In this document: positions 30,559 to 52,182 of the stretch, piece after piece
Numbering within the stretch: position 1 is the stretch's first letter
How the letters are laid out: every line of letters starts with the position of its first letter
Assembly (NCBI GenBank): GCA_001914405.1
Contig: MSDW01000001.1
Coordinates: forward strand, 1,178,001-1,242,000
Direction: 5' to 3'
Length of the DNA: 64,000 bases
DNA from: Candidatus Methanohalarchaeum thermophilum
GTDB taxonomy: Archaea > Halobacteriota > Methanonatronarchaeia > Methanonatronarchaeales > Methanonatronarchaeaceae
The notes under the pieces: generated by a model
Told to the model about the DNA's origin: nothing
Databases searched by the model: none
The model's input: the letters and a program-made list of their open reading frames with translations, nothing else
Program-made: the position numbers and the translations under genes

Positions 30559-30974
30559 TGAGAAGACACCTTCCTAAATCTGTGGTTTAGGTAGGTGATG
30601 AATCAACCGTAACACTTTATTTAGCTCCAGTACTAACTAAGGGTAATGGGCAGTTGGTTGGGAGTCTGCCTTTTTTTAAACAAAAAGCAGTCCCATCTAT
30701 AAAAATCTCTGGGTAAGCCTGAAACAGTTCTTGGATTAGGGGGTTTTAGTGGTTGGTGTGGAGCAGCCTTTGAGGAATAAGAGGAACCATCTAGGGTTAG
30801 TATATGGGAAAACTGTTCCTTAATCCAGACTTCACTCGGAGCAATAGGTTCCCTGTTGACGGTGTGAATGAGACAAGGCACCGTGGAAAACAAACTCCCT
30901 TTCGAGGATAAGGCCTCACAGGGAAGCCTCTCTCCTCACCGAATGGATATGAGGTTAGGCAGGGGTCACTTCAC
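30559..30974 (+). mobile_element. Non-coding IS605-derived (PATE-like) element, B family copy 1
   Basis: The left end is GAGAAGACACCTTCCTAAATC-TGTG-GATTTAGG-like hairpin (30559-30600). The right end is GCCTCTCTCCTCACC...GGGGTCACTTCAC (to 30974). No coding frame is credible inside. Blocks shared with the copies at 47837-48230 and 51722-52182 are AGTTGGTTGG, AACAAAAAGC, TAGTGGTTGGTGTGGAGCA, GTTAGTATATGG and TCGGAGCA, in the same order and spacing. Palindrome-ended non-autonomous derivatives of IS605 elements (PATEs) are known from Haloquadratum. Conservation of internal blocks amid divergence suggests a folded RNA. Confidence 0.65.
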
Positions 30975-31111
30975 AGTGTGAGGTATATAGTTAATTGTCT
31001 TTGGTTTGGTGTTGGTTTGTTGGGTGTTTGGTGTTGTTTTAGGTTTTTTTGGGGGTTGGTTTGTTGGTTTTTGTTTGTGGTGTTGGTTTTTTCTTTGTTT
31101 GAGGTGGTTTT

Positions 31112-32161
31112 GTGGATATTGGTGATCTTGCTGAGAGTATTAAAGAGAGGTTGGGTGTTGATAGGGAGGTTGTTGATGATGAGGAAGAGGCTTCTATTAG
31201 GTCTTCGAAGGTTGTTAGGGGTGATTTGTGTGATGCTAGGGAGTTGAGGGATCGTTTGGTTGATGAGTATTGTGGTTGTGATTTGGAGGAGGTTTTTGGT
31301 TGTAGTTTGGTTGAGAATGGTTATGGGGAGTTTTTTCATAAGGAGGAGGTGGTTGATAGTTGTTTGTGTTGTCCTAGTTGTAGTGTGGAGGATGTTTTGT
31401 GTGATTTGAAGTTGGTTTATGGTATTGGTGTGTCTAGGGAACGTGAGTTGAAGGAGGAGGGTTATGAGTCGATACGGGAGTTGATTGATCATGATAGGTG
31501 GGGTGGAAGAGCTAGGGAGACTTTGGAGAAGTTTGATTCTGGTGGTTTGGATAGTGGTTTGGATGTTATTTCTAGGTGGAAGTCTTCTTCTGATCCGTTG
31601 TTTTTGAAGTATTCTGGGTTTTATGATGTGGGGGATTTTGGTATTTTGGATATTGAGACGATGGGGTTAGGGGCTCAGCCTGTAATCTTAATTGGTTTGG
31701 GTTTGCCGATGGATGGGTGTATTGAGTTTCATCAGTTTCTTCTTAAGGATTTTGATCAGGAGTTAGCAGCTTTGAAGTCTTTTTATGATAAGATTAGGGA
31801 TAGGAAAGCGGTTTTAACTTTTAATGGTAAGAGCTTTGATGTTCCGTTTCTTGAGAGGAGGTTTAGTTTTTATGGCGAAGATTGGTCATTGGATCAATCT
31901 CATTTTGATTTGTATCATTTTTCTAAGAGAGCTTTTGGAGATGAATTACCGAATTATAAATTAAATACAATTGAACGAGAGGTTTTGGGAATTGAGAGGG
32001 ATATAGATGTACCGAGTTCTATGGTTCCAGAGTTCTATAAGACTTATAGAGAAGAAGATAATCCAGGGCCACTAATTCCTATTCTTAGACACAATAAACA
32101 AGATATATTAACTCTGAATAGTTTGTTAAGTGAATTAAAAGAGGAATTAGTTGATGAATAA
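31112..32161 (+). CDS. mrfB: MrfB/YprB-like DEDD exonuclease with helix-hairpin-helix
   Basis: This 349-residue protein belongs to the YprB (RNase H-like) exonuclease family. GTG 31112 is chosen because GAGGTGG lies four bases upstream. Residues 1-85 are acidic and Cys-rich (CLCCPSCS). A helix-hairpin-helix-like segment follows (VYGIGVSRERELKEEGYESI, near 103-122). The nuclease core has FGILDIETMGLG (DxE, near 170), LTFNGKSFDVPFLERRF (near 235-251), FDLYHFSKR and the late HNKQDILTLNSLL, giving the DEDD set. In Bacillus, MrfB acts with the MrfA helicase in mitomycin-damage excision. Here the helicase gene overlaps it by eight bases, so the pair is almost certainly a unit. Confidence 0.82.
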   Translation: MDIGDLAESIKERLGVDREVVDDEEEASIRSSKVVRGDLCDARELRDRLVDEYCGCDLEEVFGCSLVENGYGEFFHKEEVVDSCLCCPSCSVEDVLCDLKLVYGIGVSRERELKEEGYESIRELIDHDRWGGRARETLEKFDSGGLDSGLDVISRWKSSSDPLFLKYSGFYDVGDFGILDIETMGLGAQPVILIGLGLPMDGCIEFHQFLLKDFDQELAALKSFYDKIRDRKAVLTFNGKSFDVPFLERRFSFYGEDWSLDQSHFDLYHFSKRAFGDELPNYKLNTIEREVLGIERDIDVPSSMVPEFYKTYREEDNPGPLIPILRHNKQDILTLNSLLSELKEELVDE

Positions 32162-34406
32162 GGTTCAGCAGACGGATAAAATAATGGATGCTATCGAGGG
32201 GGTTAGAGGTAGTGGTTGGTATCGGGAGCAGATCGAGGAAATAAGAGAATTACCTGGTGAAGAACCAGAGTTTGAAGAAGTAGAGCTGAAAGATGAGATC
32301 AGAGAGTATCTCGATAGAAATGGGATTGATCTGTACACTCATCAAGCTAGGTGTATTGAGGAGGTTCGTGGTGGTAAGGATGTTGTTTTGTCTACTCCTA
32401 CTGCTTCTGGTAAGACTCTAGCTTTTAATATCCCTGTTTTTGAGGACTTGATTGAGGACAAGGATGCTAGGGCTCTTTATATCTATCCTACTAAGGCCTT
32501 ATCTAATGATCAACTTGAGAGCATCAAAGAGATGGATGATGAACTTGGTTTGGATGTTGACCCCGGTGTCTATGATGGGGATACATCTCGAGGTGCTAAG
32601 AGAAAGATCCGTGAGAGTTCTAGGGTTATTTTGACTAATCCTTATGGCTTGCATCACTATCTACCTTGGCATAATAAGTGGAAAAATGTGTTTAAAAACT
32701 TAGAGTACATAGTTCTAGATGAGGTCCATCAATATAGAGGAGTTTTCGGTTCTAATATCGCTTTTTTAGTTAGACGATTAAAGAGAGTTGTAGAACACTA
32801 TGGTGGAAGCCCTCAGTTTATTCTGTCTTCTGCCACTATAGCTAATCCAGGCGAGTTCTCGAAGAAACTAGTTGGAAGAGATTTTGAAGTAGTTTCTAGG
32901 GATGGTTCTGGATCTGGAAAAAAGTATTTTGTTTTCTGGAATCCCCTAGAATACGAAGATCAATCGATTCATGTTCAAACAAGTAACTTGTTGTCTTACA
33001 TGGTTGATGGTGGACTGCAGACACTTTGTTTCACGGTTTCTAGGAAGATGGCTGAGTTAATCTCGAAGTGGAGTGATGAAAGCAGTGATAAAAAGATAAT
33101 GGCCTATAGAGCTGGTTACAAACCAAGGGAGCGAAGAATAATTGAACAGGGCCTTAGAGAGGGAGAGGTCAGAGGAGTAGCTTCTACTAATGCGCTGGAG
33201 GTTGGTGTTGATATTGGTGGCTTGGATGTTGTCTTGATGTCAGGGTATCCTGGGACTATGATTTCGACCTGGCAGCAGGCAGGAAGAGCAGGCAGAGGAA
33301 ACGATGCTTCAGCGGCTTTCTTAATAGCGTTTGAAAACCCCTTAGACCAATATTACATGAATCACCCGGATAGGTTCTTTGAAAAATCACATGAACATGC
33401 AATAATAGACTTAGACAACTCTAACATAGCAATAGGTCACTTACTCTGCGCAGCATCAGAATTACCACTAAAAGAAAACGAATGGCTAACACAAAACAAC
33501 CAAGAAGAATTAAACCACCTAAAAAATGAAGATATACTACATGAAACCCCGAACGGTGTTGTATATGGCGGTGAAAAAAGACCAGCAGAGATCGTTGAAT
33601 TAAACAACATCAGCCAAGACATCATAAAAATAATATTAAATGGTAAACTGCTTGGTACAATGGATAGAGCACAAGCGTATAGAGAAGCACACGAAAACGC
33701 TGTATACATGCACCAAGGAGAAACATATGTAGTCCAAGAACTAGACCTCGATGACAAAGTAGCATATGTCAAAAAAAGAGAAGTAGACTACTACACGGAA
33801 CCCCAATCCCAGACAGACATCAAAATAAACGAAAAACAAGAAACAAAAACACACAAAAACCTAAAAATCAACCTGGGCAATGTAGAAGTCTCAGAATTCT
33901 ACTTAAAATACAAAATAATGGAAAACGACAAAGTAATCGCAACTGAACCACTAGACCTGCCTCCAATAAACTTCAAAACCGAATCAACCTGGATAACAAT
34001 ACCAAAAGAAACAATAAGAGAACTAGAAGAAAAAGACATGGACATCGAAGGAGGCCTACACGCAATAGAACACGCAATGATCGCAATGGCCCCATACCAC
34101 GCCATGTGCGACAGATGGGACCTAGGCGGAGTATCCACCAAAAACCACACAGACACACAAAAACCCACAATATTCCTATACGACGCATATGAAGGAGGAA
34201 TAGGAATAACCGAAAAATGCTACCAACTAATCAACGAACTACTACAAACAACCTACGAACTAATAAAAGACTGCGACTGCGAAAACGGCTGCCCATCCTG
34301 CATATACTCGCCAAAATGCGGAAACGACAACGAACCACTAGACAAACAAACAGCACTAACAATACTAAAAAAACTAACCAAAAACCAAAACAAAAAAACT
34401 ACCTAA
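32154..34406 (+). CDS. mrfA: MrfA/YprA-like DEAD/H-box helicase with DUF1998 Cys cluster
   Basis: This superfamily 2 helicase of about 750 residues has a Q-motif region (LYTHQARCIE), motif I TPTASGKT (near 81-88), motif II LDEVHQYRG, motif III LSSATIANP, and motifs IV-VI ending STNALEVGVDIG and QAGRAGRG. The C-terminal DUF1998-type region ends CDCENGCPSCIYSPKCGN, a four-Cys zinc or Fe-S site seen in MrfA and Hrq1-like helicases. ATG 32154 fits the GAGGAA site better than the in-frame TTG three bases earlier, and gives an eight-base overlap with mrfB. Known MrfA is a 3'-5' helicase in excision repair of mitomycin lesions. Codon choice swings from GT-rich early to strongly AC-rich late. Confidence 0.88.
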   Translation: MNKVQQTDKIMDAIEGVRGSGWYREQIEEIRELPGEEPEFEEVELKDEIREYLDRNGIDLYTHQARCIEEVRGGKDVVLSTPTASGKTLAFNIPVFEDLIEDKDARALYIYPTKALSNDQLESIKEMDDELGLDVDPGVYDGDTSRGAKRKIRESSRVILTNPYGLHHYLPWHNKWKNVFKNLEYIVLDEVHQYRGVFGSNIAFLVRRLKRVVEHYGGSPQFILSSATIANPGEFSKKLVGRDFEVVSRDGSGSGKKYFVFWNPLEYEDQSIHVQTSNLLSYMVDGGLQTLCFTVSRKMAELISKWSDESSDKKIMAYRAGYKPRERRIIEQGLREGEVRGVASTNALEVGVDIGGLDVVLMSGYPGTMISTWQQAGRAGRGNDASAAFLIAFENPLDQYYMNHPDRFFEKSHEHAIIDLDNSNIAIGHLLCAASELPLKENEWLTQNNQEELNHLKNEDILHETPNGVVYGGEKRPAEIVELNNISQDIIKIILNGKLLGTMDRAQAYREAHENAVYMHQGETYVVQELDLDDKVAYVKKREVDYYTEPQSQTDIKINEKQETKTHKNLKINLGNVEVSEFYLKYKIMENDKVIATEPLDLPPINFKTESTWITIPKETIRELEEKDMDIEGGLHAIEHAMIAMAPYHAMCDRWDLGGVSTKNHTDTQKPTIFLYDAYEGGIGITEKCYQLINELLQTTYELIKDCDCENGCPSCIYSPKCGNDNEPLDKQTALTILKKLTKNQNKKTT

Positions 34407-34518
34407 AGAAAAATAAATTTATTCTTTAGATTACTGATTTATTTTAATTAGTCACTTTTTTATTTTATCACTAATGCTTTTAATTAGCTACCTTAACTTT
34501 AGTTGTTTGGAAACTGCG

Positions 34519-34544
34519 AAAACCTATGTGTAGGTTTTTTATTT
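34519..34544 (+). terminator. Terminator-like hairpin
   Basis: AAAACCTA-TGTG-TAGGTTTT (34519-34538) runs into TTATTT. It lies about 110 bases after mrfA and 20 before the next gene, and could end the mrfBA transcript. Confidence 0.5.
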
Positions 34545-34563
34545 ACTGAAACTAGATTTTTTT

Positions 34564-35100
34564 ATGGGAGAGATATTGAGTGATAATCTTCCAAATAACC
34601 TTGTTATAGGGTTTATAGCGTTAGTTATATTGGTTATAGTTGTTGTTGGAGTTTTTTTCATACTTCCAGGTGATAATGGAGAACCAGACGGAAATAATGG
34701 AATCGGTGAGATAAGCAGTGTTGATCTTGAGATGAGGGGATTTGAAGGTGGTATGCTTGGAGGGGAACTTCGTTGCAGGGTTAAGGATGCTGGTACCGAT
34801 GAGATTAAAATAAGGTTCGACAAGATAGGAGCCGAGGATGTTTTGATTTTCAACAATGAAGAAAATGCTGAATACGCCTATGATGGGGATTCCTGGATGA
34901 AAATCCCACTAGACCAAAACACATCATATTACAAGATGCCTTTCGAGGAATGGGCTAAAAAAGGACCTGGAACCTATACATTCAGTTATCAAGAATTCAG
35001 TCTAGAAGTAACAATCAAAGAAGTAAACCCAGATCTATCAGACACCCTATTCAAGCCCCCAAAAAACGCTTCAATCCACGAATTAGAAAAAACAAATTAA
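34564..35100 (+). CDS. Single-pass membrane-anchored exported protein
   Basis: The 178-residue protein has one membrane helix (about residues 12-35, IGFIALVILVIVVVGVFFIL) followed by a Gly/Asp/Asn linker (PGDNGEPDGNNGIGE) and a beta-rich exported domain of about 125 residues. The C-terminus is polar. No known domain was recognised. The linker and acidic surface fit an archaeon with an N-anchored surface protein. The ATG at 34564 follows a T-run without a clear ribosome site. It stands alone between the repair pair and the methyltransferase relic. Confidence 0.55.
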   Translation: MGEILSDNLPNNLVIGFIALVILVIVVVGVFFILPGDNGEPDGNNGIGEISSVDLEMRGFEGGMLGGELRCRVKDAGTDEIKIRFDKIGAEDVLIFNNEENAEYAYDGDSWMKIPLDQNTSYYKMPFEEWAKKGPGTYTFSYQEFSLEVTIKEVNPDLSDTLFKPPKNASIHELEKTN

Positions 35101-35358
35101 CCAAAACCAATCCAAAGAAAAAAAAGAAATAAAAATCTATCGGTGAATGCAATCCCTACATCAATTCTTTAAAATCGCTTTAATCAATAACTTAAAAACC
35201 ATTCTTTAATATATTTAAATAAATCCCTGGAAATCAACGATTATACAAAAATTTCCTATATTAGACTCTATTCCATAGGCCTTAATAGCTTTTTTAATTA
35301 ATCTCATAAATGTTCTAATATGCCTATTCTAAATAAAATTTAAAATGGATGGATTTTG

Positions 35359-36048
35359 ATGGGCTTTGCTGGTTTTAGATCTGAGCGGGAGAAAATGTGG
35401 GAGGAGGTTCTTTCTGATCTTGAGGTTGAGGGATGTAAGGTTATCGATGTAGGTGTGGGTGAGTCTACGGAGAAATTAGTTGAGGCTGGTGCTCAGGTGG
35501 TTGGTGTTGATACAGATATTGAGAAGTTGAAGGGATGTGAGTTGGATGTGCCATTAATTAAATGCGATATACTTAATTTTCCTTTCGAAAGACGGATAGC
35601 TGATCTTACTTTCTTTAATTTTATTCTTCATGAAATTAATCCTCAGAAACATTCGGAGGCTATACGTTTGGCATCGCATATATCTCCTGAGATAGCTGTG
35701 ATTGAACCTTCACCAGAGGTTGGTTCAGTATATCAGAGATTCAATGAATTACAACAGGAGATAATCGAAAGTCTTGGTGGGTATGAAGAATATTGATCTC
35801 TTTCTTATTGGAAGGATTTAGTAAGAACTGGGGGATTTGAGATAACAACTGCAAAGAAAATAGAACCAAAAACTAGGATTCCTTCATCAGTTATTGAAGA
35901 TATAAAACAGGATAAGATTAAAGATTTGAAGGAGAAGGATGTTGAAAGGGAATATATTCAAGAGATGAAAGAGATCCTGGAAGAAGCTGAAGAAAAAGGG
36001 ATGCAGTGGTTTCCACGGCTAGTAGTTTTAGGAAAATACCCACATTAA
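35359..36048 (+). pseudogene. SAM-dependent methyltransferase interrupted by in-frame UGA
   Basis: A single frame runs from ATG 35359 (a TTG lies at 35356) to TAA 36046 with one interruption, TGA at 35794-35796. Before it are the class I methyltransferase motifs: CKVIDVGVGESTEKL (SAM loop), VVGVDTDIEKL, ADLTFFNFILHEI and AVIEPSPEVG. After it the same frame continues SLSYWKDLVRTGGFEI, the usual late strand and helix, and ends RLVVLGKYPH. The interrupted codon fits Trp (TGG to TGA). Without read-through the enzyme loses its last 84 residues. The substrate is unknown. Confidence 0.7.
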
Positions 36049-36383
36049 AAAAATAAAAAGTTTTTAACTTTACTGACTTTAAAAAAATTATATATTGACC
36101 CTTTTTTTAGATTATGTCACTAATTAAAGCTCTTGAAAAGACTAAATAGTTTTTACTTTATTTTTTCTTCGGTTAATTACTTTATTTTTGGTAAATTAGT
36201 TTATTTTGATCTATTTTTAATCGATTAAAATAGTTTTTTCATGTAAAATTTATTGTAAACTATTAACTTTTTTAAAGGGTTCAGTAGTTTATTTTATTTG
36301 ATCTTGTTTTCTATGTGTTTCTTTGTTTTCGGGTTTTTTAATGGAATTTGTATTGTTATTTGAAAATGGATTTATTTGGGTTT
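36049..36383. other. Gene-free AT-rich stretch
   Basis: No gene is supported. The DNA is AT-rich, becoming T/G-rich from about 36290 up to the element end at 36384. Confidence 0.4.
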
Positions 36384-36797
36384 TTTAACCTATTAACCAA
36401 GAAGTCACCTTCCTGAATCTTTGATTTAGGTGGGTGATGAATTGGGGTTGTTTTATGTAGTAGAGAAACAAAATATTCTATTGCTTAGAGAGGTTCCAGG
36501 TCTATATGTCGAGTTTGAACGGCCGAGTGTTTGGGCAATAGGCTCTTCCGCAATGGATACGTGGGAAGACTTGGAACGGGGTTCAAGTGACCGAACCCTA
36601 AACCCGGGCAGAAAATAGTGATGGATATAGGTGATGAGTCCTGAAAATAAGTGTAAGCCTTGGGAACCTGCAAGGAATGGCGAACCGTGTTCGCCTTGGA
36701 AGACTATCGTGCAACAAGGCACTAATCTCGGATGCCGGTCTTGTGAATGGATAGAAGCACCTTCCAAAATCTTGATTTTAGTAGGTGAGGAGGTCAC
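36384..36797 (+). mobile_element. Non-coding PATE-like element, A family copy 1
   Basis: This element of about 414 bp has IS605-like ends. The left end is AAGAAGTCACCTTCC with a TGAATC-TTT-GATTTAGG hairpin. The right end is GAAGCACCTTCC with AAAATC-TT-GATTTT, ending GGAGGTCAC. The interior has no credible gene but several hairpins, for example GGGTTC-AAGTGACC-GAACCC near 36571-36590, and a RUGAUGA/CUGA-like pair close together near 36630-36643. A nearly identical copy lies inverted at 52194-52608. Both copies also share the 14 bases outside the left hairpin (TTAACCTATTAACC), so these may belong to the element. Confidence 0.75.
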
Positions 36798-38339
36798 ACA
36801 AAAGTAGGTATTTTGGCTTCTTTTTTTGATTTGGTGTTTTTTCTATTTTTTTAATTTAAGTGATTTTGTTGGTTTAGTTGTTTTATTGTTGTTTTCTTGG
36901 AATTTTTCGGTTTTTTTTGGGTGTTTGTTTTCTTTTGTTTTTTGGTGTTTTGGTGTGGGGTTTTTGTTTTGTTTTTGGTTTTGTGGGTTTTTTTTGGGGG
37001 GTCTTTGTTTTTTTGGTTTTTGTTATTTTCGGATGGGTGTCTCACTTTTTGTTGGTTTTGGTTTGGTGGTAATCTTTTTTTTATTTCAATTTTTTATATG
37101 TTTTTTATTATATGTAATTTATTAATAATAATTATTTACATGTAATAAAATTATAGTAATTAATTACATGTTTTATTTTATAGGTAATATTTTACAAGTT
37201 TATCTGTGGTTCTTGGAAATTTGAAAAGTTATTTTTAGGTTAAGAAATTTGTATTATGCTAACTTAGTTGGGGGTTGTTTTTGTGGGTTTTTGGTGCTTT
37301 TAGGTATGGGGTTTTGACCGGTGATTGCCTAAAAACGCATACCTTATTTTGGGGATTTTAGGTGGGTTTTTTGGGGAATATTTGGGTTATTTCATTTTTG
37401 TTGTAATGGTTTTGTTTTTGGTGGATTTTTGTTCGTTTGTGGTAGTACATCTATTCCAACTTTATTATGAATATGGGGGTTGTTGTGTGTTTAGTGGGGA
37501 TTAAACCCAAAAACCATTAAAAAAACACAGAACCCATAAACAACACACACCTCATTACACCAATATTGTAACAAAAACCAATCCCCTCCCAAACATCAAC
37601 TACCAAAAAACAAAAAACCAAAAACCCACCAAAACAAAAACACCAAAAACAAACAAAAACAAAAAAACAAAAAAACCAGAAGCAAACACACCTCCACCAC
37701 ACCATCTACCCTTACCTAACACCAGATATATAGATAACAACAGATACTAAATAAATTCCATTAACCATCTATAGATACATCACCCTATCTATCAGAGATA
37801 AAACCAAAACCCCAATAAAACAGAAAAACCACACCTGGTAAATAACAAAAATAAAAAAGTGAGGGGGTAGACCGAAAATAGAGAACAAACCAATTAAAAA
37901 AGCACAAAACACAGACAAAAACCAAAAAATCAAACCACTTATATAACAATTAAAACTACTTATATACCCAATGTAAAACAAAAAAATCTCTTATAAACCA
38001 CGAACTTATAAATAACAAGATCCCAAAAAACAAACTTAAATTCTTAAAAAATTTTAAAAAAATAACCAAATATTAAAAAGCACTAAAAAAGGTTTTTTAA
38101 CACTATTTTTTAACCAAAACAAAATATATCTAGTTAAATAACTTCTCTAACTAAAAAAATAGATATCATTAAACTAAGTGTATAACTGGATATTTCCTGT
38201 TTCTAAAGTTTTTTTCTGTATTCCCCACCTAAAGAAAAGATATCTTAGAAGAATGAACAATATAAAAAAACCTAATCAATTAATCATAGAACTCATATCA
38301 AAAGTGTAAAGTAGCCCATGTTCTTAAGTTGTTTGTGGG
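36798..38339. other. 1.5-kb gene-free block, GT-rich then AC-rich
   Basis: The + strand is dominated by T and G from about 36830 to 37500, then by A and C to about 38050, then AT-rich. Open frames here are products of the low-complexity composition and show no protein-like features. A possible pair of competing stems lies at 37298-37344: TTTTAGG with CCTAAAA, or AGGTATG with CATACCT. The AT-rich palindromic patch ATTTACATGTAAT lies near 37131-37143. The GT-to-AC order is what flanks a rightward gene elsewhere in the window. Confidence 0.5.
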
Positions 38340-38960
38340 GGATGGAATTGAGGTTTGAAGAGTTAAAAGATGAAAAATGGAAGTTTATATACATGTTCTT
38401 CCTGATCAGCCATAAACCAGTAGAACCATAACCAAAAACAGGAAAACGAAACAATCAATAGAATACTTTACGTTCTACTAATTGGATATAAATGGAGCAA
38501 ATGTGCCTAAGAAGTACGAATCATACGTCACAGCATATAGACTCCCTAAAAGAGATGGCAAAAGGAAGACATCTTGAAACAGATAGTAAAAAAGCTTCAG
38601 GAAAAAACATACAGAGAAGGAGAAATAAAACTCGATAAGGCAGCATATAGAATCAACAACCATGGAGACAAAAAAGCGGACAAAAAGTAGGGTATCAGCG
38701 GATACAAAAACAGGAAAGGATCCAAAATTCACGCCGTAACCACAAAGAAAAGGCTGCCCTTATCAATAAAAGTATCCAAGGGTAACAAGCATGACTCAAA
38801 CCTGTTCAAACAAACATTAGAGAACATAGAGATCAGAACAGGATCCTAGGTCTAGAACCCGACCAGGCGAGGAGCTAGCAAATTCATCTAAGACAAAAAA
38901 GATAAGAAAGTATTTGAAAAATAGAAGCATTAAGAGTAATCTTCCTAAAAATAAGAAGAA
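38340..38960 (+). pseudogene. Decayed IS5-family transposase
   Basis: Frames join to a typical IS5 enzyme: an N-terminal MELRFEELKDEKWKFI and IGYKWSKC (near 38345-38500), then KKYESYVTAYRL, a TYREGEIKLDKAAY stretch, and TTMETKKADKK and GYKNRKGSKIHAVTTKKRLPL near 38655-38765. The segment SIKVSKGNKHDSNLF follows; its D is the second DDE residue. The C-terminal part is missing or unreadable. At least four stops or shifts are present. The SIKVS-GN-H-SNLF segment also occurs in the fragment at 20310, so the two probably descend from the same insertion sequence. Confidence 0.65.
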
Positions 38961-42406: not shown

Positions 42407-43369
42407 CTAGAAACCTAATTTTTCGATTCTTACTTCATTAACATCCTTTAGTTTATTGATAAACTCAAGTGTGTTTTCATAATCTTGGGTTTCATCGATT
42501 TTGTATTCGATTGAATCAAGCTTATCACTATTTTTGTTAACTGCCTCTACCAAGGGATTAAAGTCTAAGTCTTCTTCAATTTCACTGAATTCTCGATAAT
42601 CCTGTTCTTCATTTGAATCTACTTTAACCAATTTTTCGATATCACTCATTTTGGAAACGCCATCGCTGTAATTAATTTTTAACAATAATCTAGAGGTTTG
42701 ACCAGCTTTTGATCGAGTATTTATTAAATTAATTTTGTTCCATAGTGCTTCTAGCATTAAATAAATGTCTTTTTGCTTGGTTCCATTAATTTCTGCTGTT
42801 TTTGGATTAATGTATCCTATCGTTGAGAACAATGCATATGGAACTTGACTATTAGTTGCTATTGCTCCTTGTGTTTTTTCTTCTCCTGATTTCATAACAC
42901 TCGTGTTTTGGAGAGGATTTAGTTCAACTTTATTTATGCTTCTATTCATGTTCTTGAACTGAACCGTTCCCGTAAGATCAATATTATTACCTTCTTCTGC
43001 TAAAACACAACCAAACAATCGAATATCAATACATTTCTCTAATAAATCCGTAGAATCATCCTTGTCGACGATTTCGCTAAGACTCTCTCTTCTCTGGCCC
43101 ACTGTCTGAGTGTCACCTTTTGAAGAATAAAACACTATCTTAGACTTATTTTCAGTATCTGAGTCCTCATCACTTTCGTATTCATCTATATAGTCCCTAA
43201 TATATCTCTTTAATCTTACATCTGATACCATTGCTTTTTGAGTGTTTTCATCAAACCTAGGTTCTCCAGTGAAAGGATCGCCATTAGGATCACAGTCCTT
43301 AGCATCGTATAAAAACAATATCTCTGATCTATTCACTATATCCGTTTCTAGATTTTTCGTTTCATTCAT
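42407..43369 (-). CDS. cas7: Cas7/Csh2 Cascade backbone (type I-B)
   Basis: Cas7 polymerises along the crRNA as the Cascade backbone. ATG 43369 is chosen because AGGAGGG lies seven bases upstream. The longer frame from 43429 merely runs into cas8b. The 320-residue protein opens NRSEILFLYDAKDCDPNGDP, the Csh2 N-terminus, and has DVRLKRYIRDYI, a RRESLSEI region, FGCVLAEEGNNIDLTGTVQF and the basic NTRSKAGQTSRLLL. The start overlaps the cas8b stop by eight bases. Confidence 0.9.
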   Translation of the reverse strand: MNETKNLETDIVNRSEILFLYDAKDCDPNGDPFTGEPRFDENTQKAMVSDVRLKRYIRDYIDEYESDEDSDTENKSKIVFYSSKGDTQTVGQRRESLSEIVDKDDSTDLLEKCIDIRLFGCVLAEEGNNIDLTGTVQFKNMNRSINKVELNPLQNTSVMKSGEEKTQGAIATNSQVPYALFSTIGYINPKTAEINGTKQKDIYLMLEALWNKINLINTRSKAGQTSRLLLKINYSDGVSKMSDIEKLVKVDSNEEQDYREFSEIEEDLDFNPLVEAVNKNSDKLDSIEYKIDETQDYENTLEFINKLKDVNEVRIEKLGF

Positions 43370-45251
43370 TATTATTCCCTCCTGAGGAAGTATCCGGGTT
43401 AGTAAATTTGTCTGATAAAGAATAACCAATAAACATTCCGAAAATAAAATCGTTCTCTGAGAAATTTTCTTTTTCTAATAGTTCTCCAATATTATTGAAT
43501 AGTGAGGAAACTATGGGTTGATTTGATATCTCATGTATTGTTGCTTTTTCCTCAACTTCGTTTATAAATTTTCTTAAGCTATCTTTATCATTGATTCTTT
43601 TTCTAGCATATCCCAACATTCTTTTTTCATAATTATTTATTTCGTAGGATAGCCTTGCGATAGTAACTCCTAGGGGAATTCCCGTTCTGATTTCTGGTGT
43701 CTCTGCAAAGAATTTGTTTTCTGAAATAAAGTTCTCCATTTTTTCTAAACCGCTTTCTCCTTTGATTTCTTCATTAAATTTATTCATAACTATATCCGCT
43801 CCGTTTTCTTCAAAATTAATGGAAATTAAATTTGAGAAGAGATTACAATTTAACTTAGAAAGTAATTCTAAAAACCGAATATGGTTCTTAGTAAAATTAG
43901 AAGCATTAGAAGCTTCGTATTCATTAGGACCTTGGTTTCTAAGCTTGTAAGATATTTTATTAATAAATCTTTCCTGTAAGTGATCATAGTTTATTGGTGT
44001 ATCAAGAAGTATTTTTTCAAGCAAACCTATTCTTTGTTTTATTAATAAGTCATAGTCCTCGCTCCTATTTGAGCTAAATAGTTCAATTAAATAACCATTA
44101 AAACTAAAACCGGTTATTTCTTCATTTTTCTCAAGTAATTCTAATATACGATTTGGATAAATGTCTTTGATAAATTTAACAACTCTAATTCCATTATCAT
44201 ATACATAAAAAAATAAATCCACTCCAATTTTTTCTTGATTACCTAAGTTTGCTAAATCCATTAACAGATAATAACGGTCATTGAGCCTTTTTCTAAGTTC
44301 TTTTAGTTCTTCACTGGAGTAAATTTTAGAGAAGTTCTGATTTTTGAAAGATTCTAGTAATTTATCATAGTTCTTATTTTCATTAAAATTGAGTAGAGAG
44401 AAATATTTGACTCCAAGAATCTTTTTTTGTAGATAACTTTCTATAAATTTTTTTCCTTTATTAAAATCGCCAAAGCAATCGTCACAAATAATTAATTGTT
44501 TTTTTATGTTATCCTCGTTTAGTCCATAAAATCCAGTTTTTTGGTCAAAGGTAAATGAATAATAAAAAGTTGCTTTAGTTGGGGAAAATAAGTTTTCTTC
44601 TTTACCACAGAAAGAACAACTAGATAAATCATTATTTACAGAAATGGAAGTTTCAGAAGGTATAAATTTTTTAAAAACTTCTAGTGTTTCTTTAATCTCT
44701 CCAAGGTAATAGTAATCCTTTTCCAGATTTACATTTAAATTGAATCTATCTATTATGTTGAATCCAATTTTGAAAACAAATATTAGGTCTCTTAAATCGC
44801 TCTTAGATAAATCAATTAAATGACTCTTCTTTTCCTCATAGATCTCTTCGATAAATTTTGATTCATCTTTTAAAACAAAAGAATAAAATTTTTCTAAATA
44901 TTCCTTTGTGGATTTTTTTAGGTCAAGATTTAGATAAAAATCTTTAGTATTGTTAAAATTTCTATGTATTTTTTCGTTTTCGATTTTATTGTTTTTGCCT
45001 ATTGCTGATCCTCCTAAAGTAAAATCATGTGGGTAATAATGACGGTTTTTACCACTATTAATTGTTTTAGTGGGCTGGATATAGAATAGGTCTCTTTCTC
45101 CGGCTTCAACTAAATTAACATCGGATAAATAAAAATTATTGTTTTCATCGAGATTAAGTTCCATTTCTAATATTTTTTGGCTTTTTGATACATCTTGGCT
45201 AAAAGGAACAATTTCTGTGTTTCGTCCCAATTTAATTAGGTTACTAATCAT
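43362..45251 (-). CDS. cas8b: Cas8b/Csh1 large Cascade subunit
   Basis: Cas8b recognises the PAM and recruits Cas3. The 629-residue protein has a strand-rich N-terminus, then a zinc-binding pair CSFCGKE (near 212) and ICDDCFGDF (near 255), followed by FNKGKKFIESYLQKK. This arrangement is characteristic of Cas8b/Csh1. The second half is mostly helical and ends in the small-subunit-like NFSENDFIFGMFIGYSLSDKF. It starts 14 bases after cas6 and overlaps cas7. The subtype I-B call rests on cas8b with csh2-type cas7. Confidence 0.88.
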   Translation of the reverse strand: MISNLIKLGRNTEIVPFSQDVSKSQKILEMELNLDENNNFYLSDVNLVEAGERDLFYIQPTKTINSGKNRHYYPHDFTLGGSAIGKNNKIENEKIHRNFNNTKDFYLNLDLKKSTKEYLEKFYSFVLKDESKFIEEIYEEKKSHLIDLSKSDLRDLIFVFKIGFNIIDRFNLNVNLEKDYYYLGEIKETLEVFKKFIPSETSISVNNDLSSCSFCGKEENLFSPTKATFYYSFTFDQKTGFYGLNEDNIKKQLIICDDCFGDFNKGKKFIESYLQKKILGVKYFSLLNFNENKNYDKLLESFKNQNFSKIYSSEELKELRKRLNDRYYLLMDLANLGNQEKIGVDLFFYVYDNGIRVVKFIKDIYPNRILELLEKNEEITGFSFNGYLIELFSSNRSEDYDLLIKQRIGLLEKILLDTPINYDHLQERFINKISYKLRNQGPNEYEASNASNFTKNHIRFLELLSKLNCNLFSNLISINFEENGADIVMNKFNEEIKGESGLEKMENFISENKFFAETPEIRTGIPLGVTIARLSYEINNYEKRMLGYARKRINDKDSLRKFINEVEEKATIHEISNQPIVSSLFNNIGELLEKENFSENDFIFGMFIGYSLSDKFTNPDTSSGGNNNE

Positions 45252-45265
45252 ATTTTATCACTCTA

Positions 45266-46006
45266 TTAATTTGATATGGCTTTTAGGCATCCGAATCCTT
45301 GGTTGTTTCTTTCACCCAAACCAGTATAGTAAATAAATCGGTTTATTTGTTCAGTTGCGTTGATTTCGAATTTCATTTGTGTGCTCATCTGCCAAGTGTC
45401 CTTTATCTTTAATCTCTTTGGCTTAGAATCTATAAATCTAAAATCTAATTCATTTAGGTCTTTTTTAGGTTCTTTGTCATAGTAGTCTTTGTATCTGTTG
45501 ATTAGGTTTTGGAAGAGGTTGTCGTAAAATTTTTTGGAGTTTGGTCTTAGATCTATGGTTTTTAGTTCTCCATCACCGTTTTTTGTTTGTGTTCTGACTG
45601 CGATTGGTGTTATTGTTTCAAAAACCATTTTTTCTTCAAATTTTGGTTCTTCAAGGGATTGTATCGAATCTAATTTGAATTTAATATCTTTTTGTTTTTT
45701 TATTGTGAGTTCTGGGTTTTCTAGGAAGCCTTCTACAAAAGATTTAGTTAATTCCTTTTTTGGTGAGGAGAAATAGTAATTTGCTTTACTGTTTTTTGGG
45801 GTAATTCCATGTTTATCAGTTTTTTTAACATCCACATTAATCCAAGAAAGATTATATGGCTTATATTTTGGCTTCTCATGATATTTATATGCTAAATCTG
45901 GCGAAACCTCTCCAATCTTATTTAAAGAAGCACTCATTAATTCAAACAAATGATTATATGGTACCTTACTTATTTCCTCAAATCTTAAATTTGCTTTAAC
46001 CCTCAT
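45266..46006 (-). CDS. cas6: Cas6 pre-crRNA endoribonuclease
   Basis: Cas6 cuts the repeat to leave an 8-nt 5' handle. The 246-residue RAMP protein begins MRVKANLRFEEISKVPYNH and ends with the diagnostic Gly-rich loop GLGERNNQGFGCLKAI. A His-containing N-terminal helix (YNHLFELMSASLNKI) could supply the active site. It is the first effector gene after the array, with its start 82 bases beyond the terminal repeat on the same strand, so it may be transcribed with the array or from its own promoter between them. Confidence 0.9.
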   Translation of the reverse strand: MRVKANLRFEEISKVPYNHLFELMSASLNKIGEVSPDLAYKYHEKPKYKPYNLSWINVDVKKTDKHGITPKNSKANYYFSSPKKELTKSFVEGFLENPELTIKKQKDIKFKLDSIQSLEEPKFEEKMVFETITPIAVRTQTKNGDGELKTIDLRPNSKKFYDNLFQNLINRYKDYYDKEPKKDLNELDFRFIDSKPKRLKIKDTWQMSTQMKFEINATEQINRFIYYTGLGERNNQGFGCLKAISN

Positions 46007-46088
46007 ACACCTAATAACCTAAATTTCTTAATAAACTGATTTTCCTAAACTTAGTTAATTAATTAAAGTACATAAAACTTAGCCCCAA

Positions 46089-47472
46089 ACCTCAATCCTA
46101 TTTTAGTCTGATTAAGACCTACGTAAGCTCTTTCTGTTATCACTTCTGTTGAATATTTCAATCCTATTTTAGTCTGATTAAGACAATACTCTTATATCTG
46201 TTTCATTATCTATGTGAACATATTTCAATCCTATTTTAGTCTGATTAAGACCCAACTGGTGACTACGGAGGCAGTATCCTAAGAGAATTTCAATCCTATT
46301 TTAGTCTGATTAAGACGGAGATCCGGCGACAGCTATATACCTTAGAGGGTAGTCATTTCAATCCTATTTTAGTCTGATTAAGACATGGGACGCAACAGGG
46401 AGAATATAAGGCAACTGCAAGTGAATTTCAATCCTATTTTAGTCTGATTAAGACCACTCACTAATCGGTCGTTGTTGTCGTAAGCTGTTTCATTTCAATC
46501 CTATTTTAGTCTGATTAAGACTTGGCAAGACCTCCATAACTACGACTTAATGTGTCTATTTCAATCCTATTTTAGTCTGATTAAGACGGCGGATGAATTG
46601 GACTCTAAACCACCTCATCTATTTCAAGAGTGAACTTATTTCAATCCTATTTTAGTCTGATTAAGACTAACAGGATCCTGAATTAACAGGGCCTCAGGTG
46701 TATATTTCAATCCTATTTTAGTCTGATTAAGACCGAAGAGAGAATGATTTACTTGATAGGTTGCAGGAAGATTTCAATCCTATTTTAGTCTGATTAAGAC
46801 CTCATGATACCCTAAATCATTTTTTTCTATGTACTCGATATTTCAATCCTATTTTAGTCTGATTAAGACAGTTAAGCATGTAGAGGGTTTTGACCGTTTG
46901 TTTTTATTTCAATCCTATTTTAGTCTGATTAAGACAAATTAGTAAATCTAACACCTCACCCAGTAAAGGTGTATTTCAATCCTATTTTAGTCTGATTAAG
47001 ACGGTAGATATAGTCTATTCGAGGCTATAGGGAATCAATATTTCAATCCTATTTTAGTCTGATTAAGACTTGAGTTGATGAGATCTAAGAACAAGATCAA
47101 GGAAGTTCGATTTCAATCCTATTTTAGTCTGATTAAGACATAAACCATTCTTCGCAAATTATCCCTAGATAAAACCATTTCAATCCTATTTTAGTCTGAT
47201 TAAGACTTATATTAAGAAATGCGTTATGGGCAACATCTATAAATTTCAATCCTATTTTAGTCTGATTAAGACACATCTAACTGATCAATCTGACTAAGAT
47301 CCCGTGATATTTCAATCCTATTTTAGTCTGATTAAGACATTGGTTTGGGGATGTTTTTGTTGAGTGGAGTAGGGCATTTCAATCCTATTTTAGTCTGATT
47401 AAGACCACACAAATCCCCTCGTAAAACAACTTTAATATCCGCATTTCAATCCTATTTTAGTCTGATTAAGAC
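46089..47472 (-). CRISPR. CRISPR array: 21 repeats, 20 spacers, transcribed leftward
   Basis: The repeat is 30 bp; on the + strand it begins ATTTCAATCCTATTTTAG and ends TCTGATTAAGAC. Read on the minus strand it ends GGATTGAAAT, giving the type I-B crRNA handle ATTGAAAT, so transcription and the leader come from the right. Repeat starts are 46089, 46155, 46222, 46287, 46355, 46425, 46492, 46558, 46638, 46704, 46771, 46840, 46906, 46973, 47040, 47110, 47177, 47243, 47309, 47376 and 47443. The leftmost copy is degenerate in its first bases (ACCTC for ATTTC), as expected at the old end. Spacers are 35-40 bp except one of 50 bp (46588-46637). The other repeats look identical, so the array is well kept. 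Confidence 0.97.
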
Positions 47473-47836
47473 AGGAGGGTTATATTGGTTTATTGTGTCT
47501 TTTTTTGTATTAAATTGTTGCATTTTGGGGTTGTTTTCTGGGATCCCCGATAATGAATCTCTTTTATATAGATGTACAATCTGGTTTTTGTGGTTTTTTG
47601 TTTTTGTGGGTTTTGTTTTGGATGTTTTTTTATGGTTGGTGTGTTTTTTGTTTTCGATTTTGTTTTTTTGGTGATTAGGTTGTTTTATTGTTGGTTTTGA
47701 GTGGTTTTTGGTTTTTGGTTTTGTTTGATCTTTTTGTTGATTTTGGTGGTGTACGAGTTGCTATACTGAATTTTTTTAAGAAATAGAGAGTTTTTGGTTT
47801 TTTATTTTATAAATTGGCGTTTTTTTGTGTGGATTT
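47473..47836 (-). promoter_or_regulatory. CRISPR leader region
   Basis: This stretch lies upstream of the first-transcribed repeat (47443-47472). It is GT-rich on the + strand, hence AC-rich on the transcribed strand, with GGATCCCC near 47539-47547 and a TATATAGA-like element near 47565. No gene is present. The leader is limited on its far side by the non-coding element at 47837. Its AC-rich composition also fits the 3' flank of cas2. Confidence 0.55.
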
Positions 47837-48230
47837 TCATAGTAGGGTAAGGTAGAAAACCCTACGGCTTTTTGTGAGGATGAATGTATTACCACTTAAA
47901 TAATAGTTTCTATATTTTTTGGAAGTTAAACTGTAGTTGGTTGGCTTTTGTCGGCCTTTTTTGAACAAAAAGCGATCTCGGGTCTTAGAGATATCTGGTT
48001 AAAGGTTCCAGATCCCTATATCGAAGGTGTATGATGCTAGCTAAAAAAGTAATTTCTTTGGTTAGAGAGGGTTCTAGTGGTTGGTGGAGGAGTATATCAA
48101 AACGAATATGAATAAGCGGTTGAATTGTATGTTAGTATATGGCTAGATCCTGTTCCAATTTCTCCTCTCGGAGCTTGAGTTCCATGTCGACTGGCTGCAT
48201 GCGAGAAGTCCATTGTATAAGCCGAGAATC
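47837..48230 (+). mobile_element. Non-coding element, B family copy 2, between cas2 and the array
   Basis: It opens with TTCATAGTAGGGTAAGGTAG and hairpin GTAGGGT...ACCCTAC, an opening shared with the copy at 51722-52182. It then has the family blocks AGTTGGTTGG, AACAAAAAGCGATCTC, TAGTGGTTGGTGGAGGAG, AAGCGGTTGAAT, GTTAGTATATGG and CTCTCGGAGC. No coding frame is credible. Its ends are less clear than those of copy 1. It separates the adaptation genes from the leader and array and could place a new transcript or terminator there. Confidence 0.55.
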
Positions 48231-48296
48231 TTTTTTTTTTTGGTTTGGGGTAGGGGTTCTATTGTAGGTTCCTTAGCTTCTATGGGGGTTGTTACT

Positions 48297-48560
48297 TCAA
48301 ATTATGTTGTCTGTTTTTTCTTTTTCTTGTCCGATTGTGGTTTTTTCTAGGGCTTTTTTGTTTCTGAGTTTATAGATTATTATTGAGTCGTGTGATTGGT
48401 TTATGATTTTTTTGATTCCTTGTTTGACTTCTTTTAGTTCACTTTTGGTTAGGTTTCCTTCGAATACACTGTTTTGTATCCAGTTGAGGTATTTTCGGAG
48501 GAATTTTTTTACTTTGTTTACTCTTTTTACTCCTACATCGTAGACTATTATGAAATACAA
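48297..48560 (-). CDS. cas2: Cas2 adaptation subunit
   Basis: Cas2 is the dimeric scaffold of the Cas1-Cas2 spacer integrase. The 87-residue protein opens YFIIVYDVGVKRVNKVKKFL, with the Cas2 first strand and Asp, and continues LNWIQNSVFEGNLTKSELK and DSIIIYKLRN. The start is TTG at 48560, supported by GGTGG upstream and by family alignment. The three-base gap to the restored cas1 stop at 48564 points to coupled translation. The C-terminal tail is Lys/Glu-rich. Confidence 0.9.
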   Translation of the reverse strand: MYFIIVYDVGVKRVNKVKKFLRKYLNWIQNSVFEGNLTKSELKEVKQGIKKIINQSHDSIIIYKLRNKKALEKTTIGQEKEKTDNII

Positions 48561-48563
48561 CTT

Positions 48564-49542
48564 TTACCACCATATCTGAAATGGTTCGTATTCTTGTTGT
48601 TCTAGTATATGTTTTACTATTTTATAGCACTCTAGTCTTATTAAACGTTGGTATGAGACATTTTTTTTGGATTTCTCGGTGTTTGATTGTTCTATTTAGT
48701 GTTTTCTCGTATCTTTTTTCGAATTTTTTTCTTCCTTCTTCATTTAGTAGGCATTTATTGAGATCGTCGTCGAAGTGTTTTTTGTCTAACATTCCTTTGT
48801 TAGTTAGGTAAAAGATTGTTCTATCTACTATTAGTGGTTTAAATACATCTGCTATATCTAATGCTAGGGAAAATCTTCTTTCTCTTGGTTCGTGGAGGTA
48901 AGATATTGTTGGATCTAGTTGGGAGTTGTATATTTCACTTATTGTAGTTGAATATAGTAGTGAGTTTCCAAAACTTAGCAGACAGTTGACCATGTTTTTA
49001 GGTGGTTGGCGGCTTCTAGAGGTATATTTAAACTTTTCTGGTAGTATTTCATCGAAGGATTTGTAGTAAGTGCTTCTGCATCTTCCTTCTATGTTCATAA
49101 CTTCTGTTACTTTTTGAGTATCTTTTAGTTCATTTTTGATATCTTCGATAACTTCTAGTTTTTTATTTTTATTGTATCTTTTTAGGTTGCTCTTGATGTT
49201 TTCGATACTTCCTTTTACGAATTTTTTAGCTAGTTCAAGTCTTTTTTCTTGTTTTAAGTAATGTTCAGCTTGGTTAACAGTTACTTTTCCTGATAGATAG
49301 GTTTCTTTAGGATAAAATGAGCCATCATAGTATCCGTAGTAATTAAAGAAGTGAATTGGGACTCCTTCTTTAGCTAATAAGTGGGTACACTGGGATGTAT
49401 ATGTCAGAGACCCGTATGAGTAAATAGAATAAATTTTTTCAATGGGGATCGGTTTTTGATCTCCATCTTCATTTATATGATAGACTGTGTTTTCTTTTCT
49501 TCTTAATTTTCCATCACTGTTTATATAGAAATTCCTTTTCAT
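48564..49542 (-). pseudogene. cas1: Cas1 integrase, frameshifted at an A8 run near its 3' end
   Basis: The first 293 codons are intact: MNIEGRCRSTYY carries the catalytic Glu (near 152), and LHEPRERRFSLALDIADVFKP carries the His and Asp ligands (near 217-232). After [11 protein letters not shown] the coding strand has eight A residues (48661-48668). As written the frame ends at 48622 with an unrelated tail ([12 protein letters not shown]). Removing one A restores the normal Cas1 ending, [20 protein letters not shown] and EYEPFQIWW, with TAA at 48564-48566, four bases before cas2. So the gene has lost its true C-terminus, or slippage or frameshifting restores it, or the base count is wrong. 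Confidence 0.8.
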
Positions 49543-49610
49543 ATCTTCTAAAAATATTTTTCTTGGTCATGTAAGAAATATCCTTTGTTTTTTAGATTAG
49601 TTAAAATAGG

Positions 49611-50123
49611 TTAGCTAAAGCAGAATTCGCGGTATGCACATTTTTTGCAGATCTTTTTCCAGTTTGGACTAGGAAAAGTGTCCTTATTGAGAATTTCTCT
49701 TATTTCTTTGATTAGTGTTTTTATTTCTTTTTTGTCAGAGTCAGTTAATTTGATTTTTTCTTTTTCTTTTATTTTTGGATACTCTAAGATACCATGAGCT
49801 TTTATTCCTAATTGATCAAGGTAGTAAAGATAATATAATATTTGATACTTATGTGATTTTTTCATCTTTTTTGATTTTTTGACTTCATGAATCTCTAAAC
49901 ATTCTTTTCTTTTCACAAAATCAAATTTAATTGGACCTAAATTAACTTCTTTTTCTTCTCTATTGTAAGAACTTTGATGAGTTAATTTACCCAACTTAAC
50001 TAATTCAGATTCCTCTTCCATCTTGATATAATTAGAAAACAACCATAATTTAGTCTTGCAAATAAAGTAATAATTTACTTGCACACCTGTAATATCCAAA
50101 TTATCGACATATATCTCATTCAT
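49611..50123 (-). CDS. cas4: Cas4 adaptation nuclease
   Basis: Cas4 trims and orients new spacers. ATG 50123 is chosen because GGAAGGG lies just upstream and the product then opens MNEIYVDNLDITGVQVNYYF, the normal Cas4 start; the longer frame to 50207 adds unrelated sequence. The 170-residue protein has an N-terminal Cys (FICKTKLWLF), FDFVKRKECLEIHEVKKSKK with the D and E-x-K nuclease core, YQILYYLYYL, and the C-terminal ICKKCAYREFCF, which completes the Fe-S ligands. It is the first gene of the leftward cas4-cas1-cas2 set. Confidence 0.88.
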   Translation of the reverse strand: MNEIYVDNLDITGVQVNYYFICKTKLWLFSNYIKMEEESELVKLGKLTHQSSYNREEKEVNLGPIKFDFVKRKECLEIHEVKKSKKMKKSHKYQILYYLYYLDQLGIKAHGILEYPKIKEKEKIKLTDSDKKEIKTLIKEIREILNKDTFPSPNWKKICKKCAYREFCFS

Positions 50124-50776
50124 AGTACCCTTCCAGTAAAATTCACTAAGAAATAATACAAAATAAAACTTATCTATTAAAATAGAACCAGTAAACATAA
50201 TGATCAATCCCGAGACTATACATTTCTAAAGATTAAATAAATAAGTAAAAAAAAGAAATTTGATTCCTTTAATTAATTATACTATAATTATTTTTTTCAC
50301 CTTTGAATAGACTAGCCTTAAGAGATGTTAAAAAATATGTCTTTAATTGGTATTTATCTTACCTTATTTAGTTTTACTTAGATGTTTATTATTTTATTAA
50401 GTTTTATGTTTTAATTGAATATTAGTTTTTGTAGAAGTTAAGAATCTTTTATAGTTTTTTCTTGTTTTCATTTATTTTTATGTCATTAATTCTGGTTCTA
50501 GTTGGGTTTAAGACTTTGATTTTTAGGTTTATTTGAATTTAGATTTTTTTGTTTTTTGGTTTTTGATAAGTTGAGTATGTTGGTTTTTTGTTTAGTTTTT
50601 GTTGTCTGATTTTTGTTGTTTTTTGTTTTTTTGTTGTGGTTTTGTTGGGTAACTTTTAAGTGTTTGTTTATAGGATTATGTGGAGATATTATTAGGTTGA
50701 AAATGATGTTTAAGGTTGTATTGAGGAAGTTTTTTGGGTTGTTTTCTGTAAATTGGTTGTGTAGGGGTGTTAGTTT
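50124..50776. other. Gene-free spacer, AT-rich then GT-rich
   Basis: The DNA between divergent cas4 and the PiT transporter is AT-rich to about 50500 and then T/G-rich on the + strand up to the transporter start. No gene or repeat is supported. Promoters for both genes must lie here. Confidence 0.45.
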
Positions 50777-51715
50777 TTGATTTTGGTGGTTTTGGTTTTT
50801 GTTTCGGCTGTGTTTATGTCTTTGTCGATCGGTTCTTCTTCTATTCCTCCTGCTTTTGGCCCGGTTAGTTTCTCGAGGGAGATTGGGGTTTTAAGGTCAG
50901 CTTTTTTTGGTGGTTTAGCTGGTTTATTGGGAGCTTTTTTACAGGGTTCTTCCGTTAGTTCTACGGTTGGTTCAGGTATGGTTGTTGGAGAGCTTGTTAT
51001 CTTACAGGCTTTTATCATTTTGTTTGTTTCTTCAACATTGGTTATTGTTAGTAATATCCTGAAGTATCCTATGCCAACAGCGTTCACTGTTATTGGAGCA
51101 GTTTTAGGGACTGGAACTAGCTTTAATCCAGGTATTTTATGGAGTAATGTGAATAATGTTCTTTTCTATTGGTCAATTATTCCATTTCTAGCAATAACCA
51201 TTGCATTTAGCCTTTCTAAGATCTTAACTTTTATTATTCCATCTGACTACCATAAAAACAAAATTAATTATTTAAACTTTGGAATAGGTTTATTTGTAGC
51301 CTATACAGCAGGTGCAAACTCTGTTGGATTAGCTATTGGACCACTTTATTCACTTGGATATAATTTAAACTACTTATTGCTTTTAGGTGGTTTTTCTATT
51401 TTACTTGGGGCTTGGTTACTTTCTCCTAGAATTATCCACACGGTTTCATTTGAATACTCAAATATAGGTCCAAGGAGATCGATCTCCGCTCTAGGTACCC
51501 CAGCAATATTAGCACAGATCGGTATACATTTTGGAATACCTATATCATTCAGTGAAGCAATAATTTTCTCAATGATTGGAAGTGGATTGGTTTTAGGAAA
51601 AAGCAACATTGGTAAAAAAAAGTTAGCTTACACCATAGGAGCTTGGATATTCGCTTTCGCACTATCAATAAGTATCTCCTTCCTCCTATCCGAAATCACT
51701 AGAGGAATCCTGTAA
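50777..51715 (+). CDS. PiT-family phosphate (or anion) transporter
   Basis: This is a 312-residue membrane protein with about nine helices. Both halves carry the PiT repeat signature: near the start SIGSSSIPPAFGPV (degenerate for GANDVANAFGPV), and near the middle YTAGANSVGLAIGPL. PiT carriers import inorganic phosphate with Na+ or H+. The first copy's loss of the Asn-Asp pair might alter ion coupling. The start is TTG 50777, behind GGGGTG; no upstream ATG fits. It is smaller than bacterial PiT but close to haloarchaeal forms. A hairpin CACAGC-AAA-GCTGTG four bases past the stop may terminate it. Confidence 0.75.
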   Translation: MILVVLVFVSAVFMSLSIGSSSIPPAFGPVSFSREIGVLRSAFFGGLAGLLGAFLQGSSVSSTVGSGMVVGELVILQAFIILFVSSTLVIVSNILKYPMPTAFTVIGAVLGTGTSFNPGILWSNVNNVLFYWSIIPFLAITIAFSLSKILTFIIPSDYHKNKINYLNFGIGLFVAYTAGANSVGLAIGPLYSLGYNLNYLLLLGGFSILLGAWLLSPRIIHTVSFEYSNIGPRRSISALGTPAILAQIGIHFGIPISFSEAIIFSMIGSGLVLGKSNIGKKKLAYTIGAWIFAFALSISISFLLSEITRGIL

Positions 51716-51721
51716 AATGAC

Positions 51722-52182
51722 TACACAGCAAAGCTGTGGGACTTCCATGTGAGCCTTATCTGGAGTGGGGTCTGCTTTTTTCCATCCGGGGGGTTTTTCT
51801 CTTACTGCATCCTAATCGTCATCGGGATTCTTTGCTCCAAGAGAAGAATAGGATCAGGGCAAACACAAAAACCCATATATTAACTTAACTCTTAGGATGG
51901 TTCCCTTAATTCATCCTTGGTTGCTCCTACATCAGCCACTAGGACTCACCCACAAAGGTTTCGAGTTCCCCAAATACACCTTATTCGATTTAGTGTCTTG
52001 GGGCTTTTAACTTAGCCATAATACCTCAAGAGACATGGAAATCGCTTTTTGATAGAGCAACCAATCCAACCAACTTCCAATTACCCCCAACCAGTTAATA
52101 ATACCCTTTAAGTGTTATTTAAGGCATTCACCCCAAAAGGAAGAGCCGCGAGGATCTTCTGCCATACCCTACTATAAAAGTC
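51722..52182 (-). mobile_element. Non-coding element, B family copy 3
   Basis: On the minus strand it opens TATAGTAGGGTATGGCAGAAG and has the family blocks AGTTGGTTGG, CAAAAAGCGATTTC, CTAGTGGCTGATGTAGGAGCA, GTTAATATATGGG and CTTGGAGCA, ordered as in copies at 30559 and 47837. It ends near the hairpin CACAGC-TTT-GCTGTG beside the PiT stop. Overall identity to the other copies is low outside the blocks. It lies immediately inside the A-family element at 52194-52608 in the same orientation. Confidence 0.55.

Follow-up and report, generated by a model that had tools for sequence, protein, structure and literature searches.

Non-autonomous IS605-type elements of Candidatus Methanohalarchaeum thermophilum very probably carry expanded, stand-alone TnpB-type omegaRNAs

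Guide RNAs encoded apart from a nuclease gene are known from stand-alone IscB omegaRNAs and HEARO RNAs, which resemble most of the elements described here in this respect, and guide-RNA-only derivatives of IS605 elements are known as well. The nuclease TnpB, from which Cas12 descends, is likewise directed by a guide RNA. Transposase-free IS605 elements (PATEs) have also been described (PMC3119063). The PATEs of Haloquadratum walsbyi resemble the present family in being archaeal elements that encode no protein, have IS605-type ends and near-terminal palindromes, and exist in many, diverged copies; they also insert without target duplication, for which the present family offers one diverged empty site with no duplication seen. 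The part of that source consulted describes no RNA for them, whereas in the present family the interior covaries and contains an RNA core that is linked to tnpB. OmegaRNAs have a hairpin loop that base-pairs with the terminus of the transposon (PMC12558985), and the IS200/IS605 omegaRNAs (sotRNAs) of Halobacterium salinarum reported in the same study share with the present family this loop-terminus pseudoknot, a right-end hairpin and a (here predicted) RNA end at the right end of the element. In contrast to these tnpB-linked sotRNAs, the present family is mostly stand-alone, adds a 5' module and a domain between core and right end, and matches no Rfam model. A PATE-like sequence of Halanaerobium hydrogeniformans (PMC7290912), composed over 271 nt of a left end, the last 58 nt of tnpB and a whole right end, would retain the omegaRNA region since it keeps both the tnpB end and the right end, but it represents a single deletion derivative, whereas the present family was amplified with added RNA domains. 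What is new here is that an amplified, guide-only family, whose TnpB-type RNA is expanded and covaries, coexists with a single intact nuclease gene of the cognate family; guide RNA and nuclease gene appear to be uncoupled at large scale, with the RNA structure kept in the absence of a linked gene.

The window analysed, a 64,000-nt stretch of contig MSDW01000001.1, contains three copies of the element (designated here as A, B and C) and one tnpB-bearing relative, with the following features:

22698-24184, + strand: tnpB-bearing relative with left-end hairpin, decayed tnpB (ORF remnant 23670-24128), predicted omegaRNA core (24019-24184) and terminus GTAGTTCAC
30550-30974, + strand: copy A, complete and stand-alone, preceded by TTTAT at 30545-30549
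30567-30598, + strand: copy A left-end hairpin CACCTTCCTAAATC..GGTTTAGGTAGGTG, then ATGAATC; matches the left-end profile upstream of IS605 tnpA genes
30649-30693, + strand: copy A 5' module, hairpin GGCAG..CTGCC, then the AAACAAAAAGC block
30711-30844, + strand: copy A predicted omegaRNA core S1-S5, S2 loop GTGGAG at 30758-30763; homologous to tnpB 3' ends
30847-30928, + strand: copy A domain S7/S6/S8, found in stand-alone copies only and lacking in tnpB-linked copies
30929-30974, + strand: copy A right-end hairpin and terminus GTCACTTCAC, of which CTTCAC (30969-30974) pairs with the S2 loop
47840-48230, + strand: copy B, AGTAGGG-type left end, diverged core, right end degenerate or non-canonical
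51712-52174, - strand: copy C, complete, AGTAGGG-type left end, terminus GTCATTTTAC

The first-pass annotation had reported three copies sharing conserved blocks in a fixed order, and all blocks were located where it had placed them; its limits (30559-30974, 47837-48230 and 51722-52182) pointed to the right places and were refined to 30550-30974, a start at 47840, and 52174-51712, respectively. It had assigned IS605-like ends to one copy, which proved too few, as copies A and C possess both ends, copy B a left end, and 75 genomic copies are complete, and it had overlooked the decayed tnpB relative with the same core within the window. A second IS605-type repeat of ~415 nt with palindromic ends occurs at 36384-36797 (+) and 52194-52608 (-), the two copies being 96% identical; the latter adjoins copy C and is a separate element without the RNA core. 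CRISPR-Cas genes (cas6, a TM1802-type cas8, cas1 and cas4) occupy positions 43362-50207, with copy B located between the cas6 and cas1 sides.

Across the family, the flank TTTAT is followed in 5' to 3' direction by a left-end hairpin and GATGAAT, an AT-rich stretch, the 5' module, in which hairpin GGCAG..CTGCC precedes AACAAAAAGC, a variable insert and the core hairpins S1-S5. In stand-alone copies the core is succeeded by a domain that is closed by stem S7 (TTCCCTG..CAGGGAA) and encompasses hairpins S6 and S8, and then by the right-end hairpin, GTCACTTCAC and unrelated flanking DNA; in copy A the putative guide starts at 30975, directly 3' of the terminus. Compared with the tnpB-linked form, the stand-alone RNAs are longer by the 5' module and the S6-S8 domain. 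The hairpin sequences at the left and right ends were shown to be swapped wholesale between subfamilies, with the core retained. One hybrid copy (contig C1 of the same genome, 307127, + strand) joins a stand-alone-type 5' module to a tnpB-type core and right end without S6-S8, with the loop GTGAAC and the terminus GTTCAC.

This anatomy was drawn by eye with counted pairs, the helix limits thus being approximate, and standard pairs were present in 83% of the cells. Cells changed on both sides numbered 67, compared with 30.1±4.4 in shuffles (none of 500 reached the observed value) and with 4-22 when the partners were slid, while the covariation score was 0.218 versus 0.134 in shuffles and 0.045-0.108 with slid partners. 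The best single stem was S6, represented for example by ACGGTG/CACCGT, ACCGAA/TTCGGT, ATTGGG/CCCGAT and ATCAAG/CTTGGT. Covariation of the stems thus supports a folded RNA, as the first-pass annotation had suspected, and compensatory changes in the stems, the evidence that it had asked covariance modelling to supply, are present; furthermore, the similarity extends beyond the transposition ends, as the interior core covaries and persists while the end hairpins change. RNAalifold, applied to the unrefined alignment, returned only -9.8 kcal/mol, a near-null result attributed to the variable inserts in that alignment, and the by-eye anatomy was used instead. The wobble count for strand amounted to 49 G-U versus 46 A-C. 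No Rfam family matched the element at either gathering or permissive thresholds.

The identity of this RNA is indicated by its linkage to tnpB. In this genome, ~15 copies belonging to a single tnpB family carry the core S1-S5 at their 3' end, where it is partly coding and partly located behind the stop codon, and is followed directly by the right-end hairpin and GTAGTTCAC. A profile derived from stand-alone copies alone matched 13 of the 16 listed tnpB loci (E-values of 6e-7 to 1e-13), and these 13 loci possess the same left end ~1.1 kb upstream. The S2 loop and the terminus were shown to form a pseudoknot in which 217 of 222 cells are paired (the maximum in 2000 shuffles being 209), and which reads GTGGAG/CTTCAC in stand-alone copies versus GTGGAC/GTTCAC in tnpB-linked copies, the sixth pair being swapped from G-C to C-G. 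TnpB homologues from other archaeal genera (28-62% identity) exhibit the same hairpin and pseudoknot arrangement at their end, with versions such as GTGAAC/GTTCAC, GTCAAC/GTTGAC and GTGGCA/TGTCAC; here 118 of 120 cells were paired (shuffled maximum 114), a count for which the motif strings were chosen by eye with their occurrence checked, and which excludes homologues without an evident match (e.g. L235-L238). The S6 loop was rejected as the pseudoknot partner because this hairpin is missing from tnpB-linked copies and compensatory changes agree with pairing of the S2 loop.

The homology to tnpB 3' ends, together with the covarying terminus pseudoknot, identifies the RNA as TnpB-type, consistent with the guide-like RNA that the first-pass annotation had envisaged; of the likeness to tnpB and iscB guide RNAs that it had put forward, the tnpB part held for the 3'-end core and the iscB/HEARO part did not, as the iscB loci examined gave no core match and Rfam no HEARO match. 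Features typical of TnpB omegaRNAs (RNA at the tnpB 3' end, with core and right end kept in gene-less copies, and a pseudoknot of loop and terminal motif next to a right-end hairpin) coincide with those of a PATE, namely IS605-like sub-terminal palindromes without a transposase gene. The elements are therefore very probably non-autonomous IS605 elements (PATEs) that carry expanded stand-alone omegaRNAs, and they represent naturally expanded TnpB guide-RNA scaffolds for which covariation data are available.

To determine the extent of the family, copy A was used as the sole BLASTN query, yielding 66 matches at ~41 places in its own 2.14-Mb genome; a few more turned up in one other genome of the host's family, and the remaining relatives searched gave no match. 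A covariance model, R1 (177 positions and 34 pairs, built from 34 sequences), yielded at E≤0.01 at least 149 matches in the own genome, a lower bound because 150 candidates were scored, another 10 in the sister genus, and no match among 392 further genomes of the phylum. Rfam does not recognize this omegaRNA, for which R1 now supplies an explicit model. A sequence profile located 154 cores in 0.73 Mb of DNA around the matches; 75 copies in this DNA are complete, with both ends, the 5' module and the core. No match was obtained when GTDB and IMG/VR, from which the own genome and its near relatives are possibly absent, were scanned for exact DNA patterns. Judged by these searches, the family seems to be confined to two genera among the genomes covered, the class of the host being represented by three genomes only. 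On contig C1 of the own genome, diverged copies lie mainly on the + strand (56 versus 20), whereas stronger copies are less skewed (39 versus 28); candidate causes are target-strand bias, strand-biased decay and detection bias.

The copies extend from an IS200/IS605-type left end, located 3' of TTTAT, to the right end GTCACTTCAC. The left flank conforms to TTTAT at 79-91% per base and the right flanks differ in 74 of 75 complete copies, a pattern that fits a TAM in the left flank and a guide in the right flank. A search for empty sites gave one informative case, the remaining matches being left-end hairpins: one element is inserted in a tnpB for which the sister genome harbours an uninterrupted homologue (57 versus 58 nt, a diverged empty site), and no target duplication was seen at this single, diverged site. 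IS605 tnpA genes, encoding Y1 transposases, are present in both the own and the sister genome, several with the same left-end hairpin directly upstream, and the elements are probably mobilised by TnpA in trans, as the first-pass annotation had considered possible.

In its own genome the cognate TnpB family is represented by one intact frame of 445 aa (contig C2, 143846-145180), which matches NCBIfam guided_TnpB at 185.8 bits as well as Pfam PF01385 and PF07282, the other listed copies being stop-interrupted or partial. Well over 100 elements alongside one intact tnpB of the matching family suggest that a single nuclease may be common to many guides. The RuvC-II segment of this protein reads FCGDGKGW and lacks the usual glutamate, which may be replaced by a conserved E in DESYTSK/NEANTTK; a glutamate rearrangement of this kind is known in TnpB and Fanzor. 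Another TnpB family of this genome shows the same RuvC-II change and has a candidate alternative glutamate. A single-sequence AlphaFold model of the TnpB had a pLDDT of 42 and was set aside.

We propose that the RNA would fold into several hairpins, with the S2 loop pairing with the six terminal nucleotides of the element, and that ~15-20 nt at the start of the right flank would act as guide. TnpA from other IS605 elements would transfer the element in single-stranded form, inserting it 3' of TTTAT; TnpB, loading the RNA in trans, would then cut the site emptied by excision, which corresponds to TTTAT followed by the guide, and repair would copy the element back, favouring its retention. Transcription, trans loading, cleavage and retention are steps that we infer. 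That the stand-alone RNA loads a TnpB in trans is slightly favoured by us over the opposite, and is the weakest step, because these RNAs have their own version of terminus and loop and two added domains. It is a tentative suggestion that the one intact TnpB serves more than 100 trans-acting guides and that the 5' module and S6-S8 are adaptations to life without a linked nuclease; on this view the added domains might stabilise the RNA, help it to compete with the cis omegaRNA or turn it towards regulation of the host. If true, an archaeon would possess a dispersed, mobile guide repertoire. The uncoupling of guide RNA and nuclease gene makes it directly testable whether many guide-only elements parasitise a single RNA-guided nuclease.

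The main competing possibility, unlikely though deserving consideration, is a true guide RNA whose partner is a different or extinct TnpB and not the family with the core in cis. The CTTCAC terminus and GTGGAG loop of stand-alone copies were absent from the tnpB-linked copies examined, which leaves room for a different or lost TnpB as the true partner, and this terminus/loop version together with S6-S8 occurs at no examined tnpB locus except beside C1:1500386, where the core starts ~90 nt downstream of an unrelated tnpB already complete with a 3' end of its own. Against such a partner, the one tnpB family is the closest match to the core S1-S5, and the remaining tnpB genes examined have unrelated 3' ends; the added domains, as far as can be read from sequence, may fit either use in trans or a lost TnpB. 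The elements might instead be MITEs derived from a tnpB insertion sequence, with the RNA a functionless relic and TnpA requiring the ends only, as left ends are common to tnpB elements, many copies are decayed and PATEs that arose by core deletion are known (PMC3119063). We regard this as improbable, given that the interior covaries across diverged stand-alone copies, including in S6-S8, which tnpB-linked copies lack, and that the core persists when left- and right-end hairpins are replaced between subfamilies.

TldR proteins are nuclease-dead TnpB relatives that repress genes, and the changed RuvC-II motif of the intact TnpB, as well as the presence of one protein with many guides, would suit a comparable role in which TnpB with stand-alone guides represses genes and the RNA is now a host regulator. 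However, guide targets did not exceed chance in the 0.73 Mb examined (13 versus 10.6), the copies bear hallmarks of ongoing transposition, and the RuvC-II change recurs in the other TnpB family with its candidate alternative glutamate, so that this role is rated as more improbable still than a relic. An IscB/HEARO omegaRNA was rejected, its probability being negligible: RRXRR (IscB-type) matches do occur (6 in the own and 12 in the sister genome), but the core matched none of the iscB loci examined, seven element loci compared with Rfam HEARO at E≤5, as the first-pass annotation had advised, gave no match, and the core is located at the tnpB 3' end with the right terminus as its pseudoknot partner. 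IS605-type left-end hairpins lie near some of the RRXRR loci of both genomes.

Sub-threshold matches to Rfam HgcC (RF00062; E-values of 4e-6 to 0.13) were observed at loci L177 (1532-1671), L101 (1312-1453) and L009 (2595-2730), those at L177 and L101 lying at or beside the conserved TNB domain that other tnpB genes encode at their 3' end, and HgcC itself may be a TnpB omegaRNA family. Furthermore, about a dozen tnpB remnants in the own genome (e.g. C1:1618545, C2:149188 and C1:482170) consist of an open frame of ~105-107 aa with the TNB domain only, and are perhaps further tnpB-end elements that keep an omegaRNA region.
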